DNA from: Aeromicrobium wangtongii
GTDB taxonomy: Bacteria; Actinomycetota; Actinomycetes; Propionibacteriales; Nocardioidaceae
Length of the DNA: 64,000 bases
Direction: 5' to 3'
Assembly (NCBI RefSeq): GCF_024584515.1
Contig: NZ_CP102173.1
Span: 620,001-684,000, forward strand
The translations under genes were made by a program, and so were the position numbers. This document shows positions 34,990 to 38,806 of the stretch, in pieces; within the stretch, counting starts at the first letter, position 1; each line of letters opens with the position of its first letter. Below the pieces are notes generated by a model. The model ran no database searches and was not told the origin of the DNA. It saw only the letters and a list, made by a program, of their open reading frames with translations.

Positions 34990-34995
34990 GTGACG

Positions 34996-35913
34996 GTGAG
35001 CTCAGCCAACGTCCGCGTCCCCGCCAAGATCAACCTGTGCCTGGGTGTCGGGCCGGTCCGCGATGACGGCTACCACCCGTTGGCCACGGTGTACCAGGCG
35101 GTCGACCTGCACGACGAGGTGCGCGCCGCGGTCCGCGACGACGACCGGATCACCGTCACGGTGCACACCGACCTGGACGCGCGCAGCGAGATCGCGGTCG
35201 TCCCCGAGGACGACGACAACCTGGCGGTCAAGGCCGCGCGTCTGCTGCGCGAGCGGACGGGTGTGTCGGCCGGCGCCGACCTGGCGATCCGCAAGGTCAT
35301 CCCGGTGGCGGGCGGCATGGCCGGCGGATCGGCCGACGCCGCGGCGGCGCTCGTGGCGTGCAACGATGCCTGGGGCACCGGTCTGAGCCGGGCCGAGCTG
35401 GAAGAGCTCGCGGCCCAGCTCGGCAGCGACGTCCCGTTCCTGTTGCACGGTGGCAACGCGATCGGCGGCGGACGCGGCGAGACCGTCAGCCCGGTGCTGG
35501 CCCGTGGCTCGTACCACTGGGTCTTCGCGATGGCCGATCACGGATTGTCGACCAAGGCCGTGTTCGCCGAGTTCGACCGGATCAACGCCGGCTCCCAGGT
35601 CCCCGACCCGGTGGTGCCCGATGCGCTGCTGTCCGCGCTGCGCGCCGGGGACGCCGTGGCGCTCGGCCAGGCGCTGTCCAACGACCTGACCGAGGCGGCG
35701 CTGTCGCTGCGCCCCGAGCTGGCCGACACCCTGGCCATCGGCATCGAGGCCGGCGCGCTCGGCGCGATCTTGTCGGGCTCCGGCCCGACGGCGCTGTTCC
35801 TGGCCTCCGACGAGCAGAACAGCCTCGACATCGCCTTCGCCCTGACCAGCGCCTCAGGCTGCGCCGACGTCGTCCAGTCCCGCGGCCCCGTCGCCGGCGC
35901 CCGCTTGATCTGA
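34996..35913 (+). CDS. ispE: 4-diphosphocytidyl-2-C-methyl-D-erythritol kinase
   Basis: The 305-residue GHMP kinase phosphorylates CDP-methylerythritol in the non-mevalonate isoprenoid pathway. It has the N-terminal VRVPAKINLCLGV, the ATP-binding glycine-rich PVAGGMAGGSADAAAAL and the C-terminal LSGSGPTALFLA motif, plus GSDVPFLLHGG. In most actinobacteria ispE follows ksgA; here 20 kb of purine genes separate them. A 7-bp hairpin (35915-35936) and the left palindrome of the nuclease-like gene follow the stop codon. Confidence 0.94.
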   Translation: MSSANVRVPAKINLCLGVGPVRDDGYHPLATVYQAVDLHDEVRAAVRDDDRITVTVHTDLDARSEIAVVPEDDDNLAVKAARLLRERTGVSAGADLAIRKVIPVAGGMAGGSADAAAALVACNDAWGTGLSRAELEELAAQLGSDVPFLLHGGNAIGGGRGETVSPVLARGSYHWVFAMADHGLSTKAVFAEFDRINAGSQVPDPVVPDALLSALRAGDAVALGQALSNDLTEAALSLRPELADTLAIGIEAGALGAILSGSGPTALFLASDEQNSLDIAFALTSASGCADVVQSRGPVAGARLI

Positions 35914-35914
35914 C

Positions 35915-35936
35915 CCCACCCGCACCCAAGGGTGGG
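35915..35936 (+). terminator. Small hairpin after ispE
   Basis: CCCACCC at 35915-35921 pairs with GGGTGGG at 35930-35936 around an 8-nt loop, directly after the ispE stop. There is no T run. A similar C-rich/G-rich pair follows the ABC-F stop codon on the other side of the palindrome-flanked gene. Confidence 0.45.
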
Positions 35937-35991
35937 ACCGAGGATGAGGGTTTTGGGCAGCTGGGGCTACCGCGAACCCTCATCGTCGATC
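35936..35991. repeat. Left 56-bp palindromic repeat flanking the AbiEi/DUF559 gene
   Basis: The arms 35936-35952 and 35975-35991 pair at 15 of 17 positions, enclosing a 22-nt centre with a smaller stem (GGCAGC region against GCTACC) and a TGGG loop. The element matches the reverse complement of 36950-37005 at 50 of 56 positions. Its last two bases are the end of the nuclease-like gene's stop codon on the minus strand. Confidence 0.85.
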
Positions 35992-36862
35992 ACGCTGCGC
36001 GCCAGCCGAGGGCCAGGAACATGCGGGTGAGCTGGTGGGTGACGAGCTGTGGCTCGTGACGGATGGCGTACGAGCTGAAGATCAGCAGCCGCCGGCCGCC
36101 GATGACGATCTCGTTGCCGCGCAGCAGATCGGCGTCCCAGCGGGCGACCTCCTGGTGCGGCGTGCCGTGCACCTCGACGGAGAACGCGAACGCGTCCCAT
36201 GCCGCATCGAGGAAGTAGTGCCCGTCCGGGCCCTGGATCTTTCGCTGCCGGGTCGGGGCGGGCAGCCCGGCGGCGCGACGGATGTCGTCGAAGTCCCGCT
36301 CCGGCAGCGACTGGATGCCGCCCGTCCCGTCGAGGATCGACTCGCGGATCAGCCCACGGCGCCGGCACATCCCCCGCCGGTCGAGCGTCTGGTGCAGGCG
36401 CGCCGCGTTGACCAGGCCCTGCTGCATCGCGGCCAGGACGATCGTGCGGGCGTACCGGTCGGTCTCGCACCAGCTGGCAGCGTCGATCACGCTGCGTGCC
36501 GCGCGGGTGCGCCGCGGCTCCTTGAACGGGTGGACGTCTGCGGTGCCGAGATCGGTGCTGAAATGGGTCACGAGGGACGGGACGCTTGGCCGGGCGGCGC
36601 CCTCGGGGAGGACGACGAACGTCGAGTCGCTGGCAAAGCCGGTGAACCCGTCGTGCCGCAGCGCGCTCAGGCCGCCCAGCGCCGAGGCCGGCGCGCACAG
36701 GGTGAGCGCCACGAGCTCCTGCTCGTCCGGCGAGAGGGGACCCGAATGGGTCACCACCACGCCGCGGTGCGGGGACTGCCACCTGCCGGTCGCGATCGCA
36801 TGACGGACCGCGCCGCGCCCATAGGCAGCCACGAGCTCCGCGGTCCGGAAGACGGTTCTCAT
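35990..36862 (-). CDS. AbiEi-type winged-helix / DUF559 nuclease-like protein
   Basis: This 290-residue protein has an N-terminal AbiEi-like winged-helix region (FRTAELVAAYGRGAVRHAI and a WQSPHRGVVV wing) and a C-terminal DUF559/Vsr-like domain of the PD-(D/E)XK fold: GHYFLDAAWD (Asp), FSVEVHGTPHQE (Glu, with His in place of Lys), then RWDADLLRGNEI. No toxin-type partner gene lies beside it. It stands alone between inverted 56-bp palindromes, the left one touching its stop codon. I chose ATG 36862; ATG 36886 adds eight residues. Function is unknown: it may be a nuclease that mobilises the flanking palindromes, or an orphan antitoxin-like protein. Confidence 0.75.
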   Translation of the reverse strand: MRTVFRTAELVAAYGRGAVRHAIATGRWQSPHRGVVVTHSGPLSPDEQELVALTLCAPASALGGLSALRHDGFTGFASDSTFVVLPEGAARPSVPSLVTHFSTDLGTADVHPFKEPRRTRAARSVIDAASWCETDRYARTIVLAAMQQGLVNAARLHQTLDRRGMCRRRGLIRESILDGTGGIQSLPERDFDDIRRAAGLPAPTRQRKIQGPDGHYFLDAAWDAFAFSVEVHGTPHQEVARWDADLLRGNEIVIGGRRLLIFSSYAIRHEPQLVTHQLTRMFLALGWRAA

Positions 36863-36949
36863 GCGTCGACCCTGTGCGCGGACCATGCTCGGCCGCGAGC
36901 GGCGAGGGCTCGCCTGTGCGCGTCCGGCACCGTGCCGGGGCCTGTGGAC

Positions 36950-37005
36950 GACCGAGGATGAGGGTTATCGGCAGCCCCAGCTACCCAAAACCCTCATCCT
37001 CGGTC
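36950..37005. repeat. Right 56-bp palindromic repeat flanking the AbiEi/DUF559 gene
   Basis: The arms 36950-36966 and 36989-37005 are perfectly complementary over 17 bp, with a 22-nt centre containing the smaller stem GGTAGC/GCTGCC (minus strand) and a TGGG loop. It lies 16 bp past the ABC-F stop codon and 87 bp before the nuclease-like gene's start. Its orientation is opposite to the left copy. Confidence 0.88.
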
Positions 37006-37021: not shown

Positions 37022-38806
37022 TCAGCTCTCGAGGAGCTCGGTCAGCTCGAGCCAGCGCTCCTCGTGGGTCGCGACCTGCGCCTCGAGGTCCTTGACCTCG
37101 TTCGAGCGGGCGAGCAGCCCCGGGACGTCCGCGGGGTCGTGCTCGGCCAGCTCGGCGTGCAGCGCATCGATCCGCGCGGTCAGCTTGGCCATCTTGCGCT
37201 CGATCGAGCCGACCTCCTTGCGCGTGGTGCGCTCCTCGGCGCTCGACAGCTTGGACGCCTTGACGTGCCCTGCGGTGGACGGGTTCGACGCGGCGGGGGA
37301 GTCCTGCTCCTTGCGCAGGCGCAGGTATTGGTCGACGCCACCGGGCAGGTGCCGCAGGTGGCCGTCGAGGATCGCGTACTGCTGATCGGTGATGCGCTCG
37401 AGCAGGTAGCGGTCGTGGGAGACGACGAGCAGCGTCCCGGGCCAGGAGTCCAGCAGGTCCTCCATCGCCGCGAGCATGTCGGTGTCCAGGTCGTTGGTCG
37501 GCTCGTCGAGCACCAGGACGTTCGGCTCGTCGAGCAGGATCAGCAGCAGCTGCAGACGGCGCTTCTGCCCACCGGACAGATCGCGCACAGGAGTCGACAT
37601 CTGCGCGCTGGAGAAGCCGAGGCGCTCCAGCAGCTGCGAGGGCGTCATCTCCTTGCCGCCGGAGACATACGCCGTGCGCTGGCGTCCGACGACGTCACTG
37701 ACCCGGTCGGCGCCGACGTCCTTGAGCTCGTTGAGCTCCTGCGTCAGCGTCACGACCTTGACGGTCTTGCCCTTCTTGACCCGGCCGGTCGTCGGCTCGA
37801 CCTTGCCGGTCACCAGGCCCAGCAGCGTCGACTTGCCGGCGCCGTTGGCGCCCAGGATGCCGGTGCGCTCACCGGGCCCGATGCGCCACTCGACGCCCTT
37901 GAGCACCTGCTTGTCGCCGTACGACACCGAGACGTCGAGGATGTCGACGACGTCCTTGCCCAGGCGCGAGGTGGCCATCTGCTTGAGCTGGATCGGGTCG
38001 CGCGGCGGCGGCTCGTTGGCGATCAGCTCATTGGCCGCGTCGATGCGGAACTTCGGCTTGGACGTCCGCGCGGGCGCGCCGCGCCGCAGCCACGCCAGCT
38101 CCTTGCGCATCAGGTTCTGCCGCTTGGACTCGGTCGCCGAGGCGTGCCGGTCGCGCTCCACCCGCTGCAGGATGTAGGCCGCGTAGCCGCCCTCGAAGGG
38201 CTCGACGATGCCGTCGTGCACCTCCCACGTCGCGGTGCAGACCTCGTCGAGGAACCAGCGGTCGTGGGTCACCACGAGCAGGCCGCCGGCATTGGCCGAC
38301 CACCGAGACTTCAGGTGCCCGGCGAGCCAGGTGATGCCCTCGACGTCGAGGTGGTTGGTGGGCTCGTCCAGGAACAGGACGTCGTCGTCGCCGACCAGCA
38401 GCCGGGCGAGGGCGACGCGACGGCGCTGTCCGCCCGACAGCGTGCCGACCGTGGCGTCCCACGGGATGTCGGAGACCAGGCCGCCGATGACGTCGCGGAT
38501 CTTCGGGTCCCCGGCCCACTCGTAGTCCTGCTTGTCGCCGACGATCGCGTGACCGACCGTGCCGTCCTGGTCGAGCGTGTCGGTCTGGTCGAGCATCCCG
38601 ATCGTCACCCCGCCGCGGGTCGTGACGCGCCCGGAGTCGGGCTGCAGGGTCCCGGCGAAGATGCGCAGGAGCGTCGACTTGCCGTCGCCGTTGCGTCCGA
38701 CGATGCCGATCCGGTCGCCCTCGTCGATGCCGATGGTGACCGACTCGAAGACGGTCTTGGTGGGGAAGTCGAGCGCGATCTGTTCCACGCCGAGAAGATG
38801 AGCCAC
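37022..38806 (-). CDS. ABC-F family ATPase (Uup/EttA-like)
   Basis: The 594-residue protein has two ATPase domains and no membrane segment. Domain 1: Walker A GIVGRNGDGKSTLLRI, signature LSGGQRRRVALARLL, Walker B LFLDEPTNHLD. A linker of about 60 residues follows, then domain 2: ILGANGAGKSTLLGLV, LSGGQKRRLQLLLIL and LVLDEPTNDLD. The C-terminal 90 residues are Lys/Glu-rich and probably coiled coil, as in Uup. ABC-F proteins act on the ribosome or on branched DNA; drug resistance cannot be claimed. A downstream partner of ispE in many actinobacteria, it faces the other way here. Confidence 0.92.
   Translation of the reverse strand: MAHLLGVEQIALDFPTKTVFESVTIGIDEGDRIGIVGRNGDGKSTLLRIFAGTLQPDSGRVTTRGGVTIGMLDQTDTLDQDGTVGHAIVGDKQDYEWAGDPKIRDVIGGLVSDIPWDATVGTLSGGQRRRVALARLLVGDDDVLFLDEPTNHLDVEGITWLAGHLKSRWSANAGGLLVVTHDRWFLDEVCTATWEVHDGIVEPFEGGYAAYILQRVERDRHASATESKRQNLMRKELAWLRRGAPARTSKPKFRIDAANELIANEPPPRDPIQLKQMATSRLGKDVVDILDVSVSYGDKQVLKGVEWRIGPGERTGILGANGAGKSTLLGLVTGKVEPTTGRVKKGKTVKVVTLTQELNELKDVGADRVSDVVGRQRTAYVSGGKEMTPSQLLERLGFSSAQMSTPVRDLSGGQKRRLQLLLILLDEPNVLVLDEPTNDLDTDMLAAMEDLLDSWPGTLLVVSHDRYLLERITDQQYAILDGHLRHLPGGVDQYLRLRKEQDSPAASNPSTAGHVKASKLSSAEERTTRKEVGSIERKMAKLTARIDALHAELAEHDPADVPGLLARSNEVKDLEAQVATHEERWLELTELLES

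Follow-up and report, generated by a model that had tools for sequence, protein, structure and literature searches.

The enzymes that the literature cited here connects with dispersed bacterial palindromes are RAYT transposases; a REP/RAYT unit (REPtron) is described as the combination of a Y1 transposase with GTAG-tagged REPs (PMC2817692, PMC3733652). Another group, the CGTC REPs, has stems of 8-9 bp and is found mostly in Alphaproteobacteria, Caulobacter being CGTC-positive; the sections of the source used here assign to it no enzyme or dedicated transposase (PMC3733652). Caulobacter also encodes VsrA, a DUF559 protein in which D102-D115-H119 have been aligned by the authors with the Vsr active site. 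In the part of that account used here, VsrA has been reported to damage DNA in cells without a methyltransferase, and its authors link it to a cytosine methyltransferase (PMC12907096).

The gene bracketed by palindromes and its product

The window, that is, the whole stretch of 64,000 nucleotides of Aeromicrobium wangtongii DNA that was analysed, contains a gene bracketed by two palindromes between ispE and an ABC-F-type ATPase gene (Table 1).

Table 1. Features of the ispE/ABC-F locus, with positions in the window
Feature	Position	Strand	Description
ispE	34990..35913	+	Left neighbour, marks the insertion site; NCBIfam equivalog, above cut-off
Left 56-bp palindrome	35936..35991	.	On the 3' side of the gene, sharing two bases with its stop codon; belongs to the dispersed family (alignment A1, model R1)
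298-aa gene	35990..36886	-	AbiEi-like N-terminal part and Vsr/DUF559-like PD-(D/E)XK C-terminal part; E196, D227, E238, H240 and H244 conserved
Right 56-bp palindrome	36950..37005	.	On the 5' side of the gene and downstream of the stop of ABC-F; belongs to the same dispersed family
ABC-F-type ATPase gene	37022..38806	-	Right neighbour, facing ispE; best matches under their cut-offs

Direct comparison bore out the original prediction that the two palindromes are inverted copies of each other, as the left one and the reverse complement of the right one are identical at 50 of 56 positions. The inverted pair can be extended to 61 nt at 89% and, the two palindromes themselves aside, the best match to the palindrome in the rest of the window does not exceed 34/56. 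Each copy had also been described as palindromic in itself, with a small inner stem; this agrees both with the arm count (15/17 pairs in the left palindrome, 17/17 in the right) and with folding as single-stranded DNA, which gave -15.9 kcal/mol (z -4.5) and -21.9 kcal/mol (z -8.1), respectively, with a small inner stem predicted in both folds. The left copy does touch the stop codon of the enclosed gene, as had been noticed: the TGA (35990-35992) shares two of its bases with the palindrome. When a known RNA family was sought for the palindrome, only sub-threshold microRNA matches to a hairpin were obtained.

The likeness of the two outer flanks, both of which begin with TGACCC, is real. However, it is better explained by two facing TGA stops than by a target-site duplication, because the stops of ispE and ABC-F face each other and TGA...TCA is already present where the two genes face each other in relatives without the enclosed gene (e.g., TGACCGGGGTCA). 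A target-site duplication is thus the less likely source of the likeness; the gene-less junctions are too divergent to place the exact insertion point.

Taken alone, the window protein has no match in Pfam or NCBIfam and no sequence match in the PDB, so that its earlier labelling as DUF559/AbiEi holds not through these databases but through PADLOC AbiEi models, which match it with a best E of 1.1e-10, and through its family. The same PADLOC models match 28 of 29 aligned family members, while DUF559 and AbiEi_4 are matched by 12 and 11 of the 29, respectively (E<=0.1). In the 29-row alignment, E196, D227, E238, G241, H244 and D253 are invariant and H240 is near-invariant, the spacing of D227-H240-H244 being 13 and 4. 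Among six syntenic orthologues, dN/dS ranges from 0.19 to 0.31 over all 15 pairs. Of the 49 genus genomes, 29 encode a homologue at E<=1e-10; of the remaining 20, one has a clear distant match and six have weak matches. More widely, when 120 genomes from the window's family were searched, 90 gave DUF559 matches, and Caulobacter also matches the DUF559 model. A scan for relatives with the window protein as single query confirmed nothing; with the alignment it gave 62 loci.

Within genomes, the highest identity between gene pairs is 70% (22 pairs), and hence there are no near-identical multiple copies. All 16 gene pairs at 75% identity or more have long flank similarity, so that the members of each pair appear to occupy the same locus. 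Rather than a multicopy transposon, the gene is low-copy and largely position-stable. In viral contigs, 12 pattern stretches were found and no relative was confirmed, and no plasmid match to the window protein was obtained. Two homologues (L056 and L057) have an in-frame stop yet are still bracketed by R1-type palindromes.

Dispersal of the R1 palindrome

In the 3.7-Mb genome to which the window belongs, a DNA search with the right palindrome returned 15 places at 11 sites (E<0.01), four of these sites being tandem pairs with a distance of 64 or 84 bp. A gap-free alignment of the 15 copies (A1) was converted into model R1, which gives 31 strand-matches at about 16 places in this genome and is matched at least once in 32 of the 49 Aeromicrobium genomes; with up to 115 candidates scored per genome, the counts are lower bounds and reach at least 115 in G022. 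The terminal columns of R1 pair G-C in 14 of the 15 copies, and the consensus begins GACC. Covariation between the arms is no better than in shuffles, and slid registers pair far less; compensatory pairing was consequently not retained as support. Nine sites of the own genome are free of the gene: a script classed four of them as convergent, ORF lists add two more, one is divergent and two are undecided. Elsewhere, one homologue (L049) lies beside tandem palindrome arrays (1159-1463 and 2450-2631 of that locus), in which the copies, five 3' of the gene and three 5' of it, follow one another every 62-63 bp or so.

Presence of the gene goes with abundance of R1: 19 genomes have both the gene and at least 10 R1 matches, 10 the gene only, three R1 only and 17 neither (p 5.5e-4, the genomes not being independent). 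Some of the 10 gene-bearing genomes (out of 29) with fewer than 10 R1 matches carry another palindrome. Conversely, genome G018 has 68 R1 strand-matches without a close homologue, its sole candidate being a weak AbiEi-type match (L217), and could be a relic of gene loss. L217 has flanking palindromes of its own, different from R1.

Flanks of family genes and gene-less loci

At 33 other loci of the family, R1 was found on both sides of the gene in 17 (12 of them away from ispE), on one side in two and on neither in 14. A de novo scan revealed that at several loci where R1 finds nothing the two sides match through another palindrome; the two paralogues in the own genome, L009 and L010, are among them. 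The 5' flank of each gene was scored against its 3' flank, with a score of 27 or more as cut-off. By this measure, 47 of 53 genus loci match their own flank; the median score is 39, compared to 16 against the flanks of other loci, and shuffles do not exceed 19. The own flank ranks first in 26 of the 53 loci and among the top five in 49, the exceptions being L067, L068, L110 and L118.

Beyond the genus, in Mumia, Haloechinothrix, Phytoactinopolyspora, Actinophytocola and other genera, 23 of 36 loci reach the cut-off and the own flank ranks first in 24 of 36. These 36 loci were drawn from the 62, of which 25 were left out as Aeromicrobium or genus contigs already counted and one as incomplete; L179 and L182, scaffolds of a single strain, gave identical outcomes, which brings the distinct count to 22/35. 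A few of these matches are long and may be repeats of other kinds. A Phytoactinopolyspora homologue (L162) lies between inverted repeats of about 197 bp that are near-identical to each other, ends of another type. Among more distant relatives, comprising 24 of 29 phylum loci (the rest being genus loci already counted, with six candidates scored per genome) and seven weak matches, 16 of 31 match, some of the matches not being palindromic. Similarly, in an independent set of 30 DUF559 genes of the window's family, chosen by the Pfam model alone and forming a part of all its matches, 23 match their own flanks, compared to 1.5% of cross pairs. Control matches were obtained for two of 29 pairs of ispE flanks (one of 30 loci having been left out for its short flank) and for three of 286 random window blocks. 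The original prediction had suggested looking for matching palindromes around homologues elsewhere, and they are usually present; six of 53 loci in the genus and 13 of 36 outside it fall under the cut-off.

The matched pieces are self-complementary at a score of 18 or more in 42 of 68 cases, versus one of 68 coding pieces and one of 68 shuffles. A strict ungapped palindrome scan of 88 loci, which is less sensitive than flank scoring, detected a palindrome on the 3' side in 41, on the 5' side in 54 and in none of the 88 coding interiors. Of the 41 palindromes on the 3' side, 23 lie between -6 and +15 bases relative to the stop; the 5' palindromes lie at a median of 111 bp ahead of the start. 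Many palindromes begin GAC(G/C) and end (C/G)GTC, as read by eye and uncounted.

The palindrome changes with the lineage of the gene, as indicated by the fact that flank sequence shared between gene pairs falls with protein identity, from 32% of pairs at 60-70% identity to 10% at 50-60% and 2-3% at 30-50%; under 60%, the palindromes mostly differ between genes. A Mantel test on 63 loci, made without five syntenic orthologues and loci scoring below 27 (r 0.35, 0/2000 permutations), is confounded by shared loci and was discarded as support.

Extra copies of the cognate palindrome elsewhere in the same genome are present in the three genome/palindrome pairs examined. Besides R1, the palindrome of L009 has three further places in the own genome (E<1e-3). 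In G023, an exact-arm pattern of the palindromes flanking a DUF559 gene (L271) occurs at four places, two flanking L271, one elsewhere and one alone in the ispE/ABC-F junction; in this lone copy the arms match and the centre differs. The same pattern occurs once each in G020, G022 and G025, and a reversed control pattern has no match in the 49 genomes.

Thirty ispE loci were read, from the 47 genus genomes with an ispE match. The gene adjoins ispE in six (G000, G002, G008, G010, G035 and G048), and model R1 detects the palindrome at all six, versus none of the 24 gene-less loci. In 12 of these 24, ispE and ABC-F remain adjacent and facing; five of the 12 junctions span 26 bp or less or have overlapping ends, and the others hold other inserts. 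Of seven inserts from junctions of relatives without the gene, each aligned to gene flanks, five scored no better than shuffles. The match at L190 (23 versus 19 for the shuffle) led to the lone copy in G023 described above. L198, in G038, holds a degenerate R1 look-alike which aligns with the R1 palindrome of L043 (score 27, versus 18 for the shuffled query); it may be a relic of a gene since lost, or a palindrome that the gene never accompanied. The expectation of a clean, palindrome-free junction in strains without the gene is thus upheld by the 24 loci without an R1 match, five of them short or overlapping junctions, but not by L198. In the ispE tree, the gene-bearing G010 groups with the gene-less G020 and G023 (support 97/92), and hence presence of the gene changes between close relatives, gain and loss being indistinguishable here.

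Several of these loci hold sequences of other kinds. The ispE/ABC-F junction of G045 (L187) contains GGTGGATCCGCAACC-like repeats, tandem and inverted, which extend over about 330 bp and resemble none of the gene flanks examined, and that of G036 (L193) a long near-perfect inverted repeat of another sequence. In G002 (L042/L196), ABC-F is absent within 1.5 kb past the right palindrome, where other sequence is found.

Competing explanations and relation to known systems

Mutually matching palindromes enclose most of the family genes sampled within the genus and many of those from elsewhere, and the palindrome sequence goes with the gene lineage. The association of gene and palindrome is strong, while cutting and mobilization by the protein are presumed. 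We consider that one gene and its cognate family of dispersed palindromes probably form a REP/RAYT-like arrangement built on a different nuclease. In such an arrangement, the AbiEi-like N-terminal part would read the palindrome, and the Vsr-like PD-(D/E)XK part would nick it, or nick the hairpin or cruciform that it might form during replication. Repair of the break would then copy the palindrome to new sites, mainly 3'-intergenic ones, and the gene would be kept because it is flanked by two of its own substrates. The dN/dS values and the intact Vsr-type motif also speak for this arrangement. The observations that count against it are the covariation at shuffle level, G018, the 10 gene-bearing genomes with fewer than 10 R1 matches, the look-alike in L198, the lower yield of the strict palindrome scan, the 16 of 31 matches among distant relatives and the loci below the cut-off.

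AbiEi proteins bind inverted repeats. This property, the AbiEi-like N-terminal part of the family and the location of the 5' palindrome a median of 111 bp before the start (54 of 88 loci with one) are in line with the palindromes being sites to which a regulator of AbiEi type binds, with autoregulation through the upstream copy, a regulon made up of the dispersed copies and no mobility. We regard this as unlikely, though less so than the two alternatives below: a matching copy also lies past the stop codon, six of the nine gene-free sites in the own genome are convergent and one is divergent, the tandem copies and the lone G023 copy between convergent genes are unlike promoters, and the nuclease-like motif is conserved. 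A nuclease which polices palindromes instead of spreading them, by cutting hairpins or cruciforms or through VSP-like mismatch repair, with the flanking copies protecting or regulating its own gene, appears slightly more doubtful. It gains from the reported DNA damage by VsrA of Caulobacter in cells without a methyltransferase and from the agreement in active-site spacing with this enzyme, in the part of the report used here (PMC12907096). Policing alone, however, leaves unexplained why lineage-specific palindromes match on both sides of the gene, and gene-bearing genomes tend to have more R1 copies, not fewer.

Least probable of all, in our view, is that the gene is a passenger and the palindromes are the ends or target repeats of another recombinase, or ordinary bidirectional terminators. 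Inverted ends around a single gene fit such a recombinase, and hairpins between convergent genes can terminate transcription; yet ordinary terminators would not agree at 50 of 56 positions, and the units sampled carry genes of one family between ends that are particular to each lineage. No relative was confirmed in viral contigs, the window protein has no plasmid match and no genome of the 49 encodes a Y1 transposase. The Y1 (HUH) model PF01797 indeed has no match at E<=1e-5 in these genus genomes nor any in the window protein, while five of 14 control genomes match, and RAYT-driven spread within the genus is therefore unsupported.

Since the flanking pair, the dispersal, the tandem copies, the 3'-intergenic preference, the lineage specificity and the low-copy, position-stable gene are all REP/RAYT traits, and Y1_Tnp is absent, we infer an AbiEi-like reader with a Vsr-like nuclease. 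The original proposal of a REP/RAYT-like relationship with an unrelated nuclease hence gains support from the flank pairs, the dispersal and the absence of Y1 in 49 genomes, with binding, nicking and mobilization by the protein as putative activities. The companion idea of a one-gene dispersing element stands for the palindrome, which is mainly what disperses, but not for the gene, which is low-copy and largely position-stable.

More broadly, the evidence leaves about evenly poised the proposal that proteins of the DUF559/AbiEi type make up a second class of palindrome-dispersing enzymes, which evolved independently and uses PD-(D/E)XK instead of HUH/Y1 chemistry; each would have its cognate palindrome, and they would be common throughout the family of Actinomycetota to which the window belongs. 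The idea extends to the CGTC REPs of Alphaproteobacteria, whose missing mobilizer may be a DUF559 nuclease: Caulobacter, reported as CGTC-positive in the sections used here (PMC3733652), matches DUF559. If true, a DUF559-based class of this kind would suggest a function for the very common DUF559 family of unknown role, represent convergent evolution of enzyme-plus-palindrome units and provide many natural pairs of nuclease and DNA hairpin for co-evolution tests. A search of the open-access literature by title or abstract start found no earlier report of DUF559/AbiEi genes flanked by cognate palindromes, subscription journals and preprints being outside its scope.

Several known systems resemble parts of this arrangement. 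With AbiE (type IV) toxin-antitoxin systems, the window protein shares the AbiEi-like N-terminal part, but at the window locus its gene adjoins ispE and ABC-F, not an AbiEii toxin, and its C-terminal part is nuclease-like. Unlike an insertion sequence, the gene is not found in near-identical multiple copies per genome (maximum identity 70%). VsrA has a DUF559-type domain in which the spacing D-13-D/H-4-H equals that of D227-H240-H244, while VsrA is linked by its authors to a cytosine methyltransferase and the sections of its report used here mention no AbiEi half (PMC12907096). As in CGTC-tagged REPs, dispersed palindromes are present, here with GAC(G/C)...(C/G)GTC ends; the published stems, as given in the same sections, are of 8-9 bp, whereas here the ends pair within the palindrome (PMC3733652). 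The closest likeness is to REP/RAYT units, as far as they are portrayed in the sections cited: a gene lies between two inverted copies of a palindrome which is dispersed and clustered in the genome, is lineage-specific, prefers 3'-intergenic places and stays with a position-stable, low-copy gene (PMC2817692, PMC3733652). The protein, in contrast, is AbiEi/DUF559-like and not a Y1 transposase, and the R1 palindrome, of about 56 bp, has no unpaired GTAG head (GT(A/G)G). By its enzyme and its tag the unit thus falls outside REP/RAYT proper, but the proposal that it works like one is not weakened by this.
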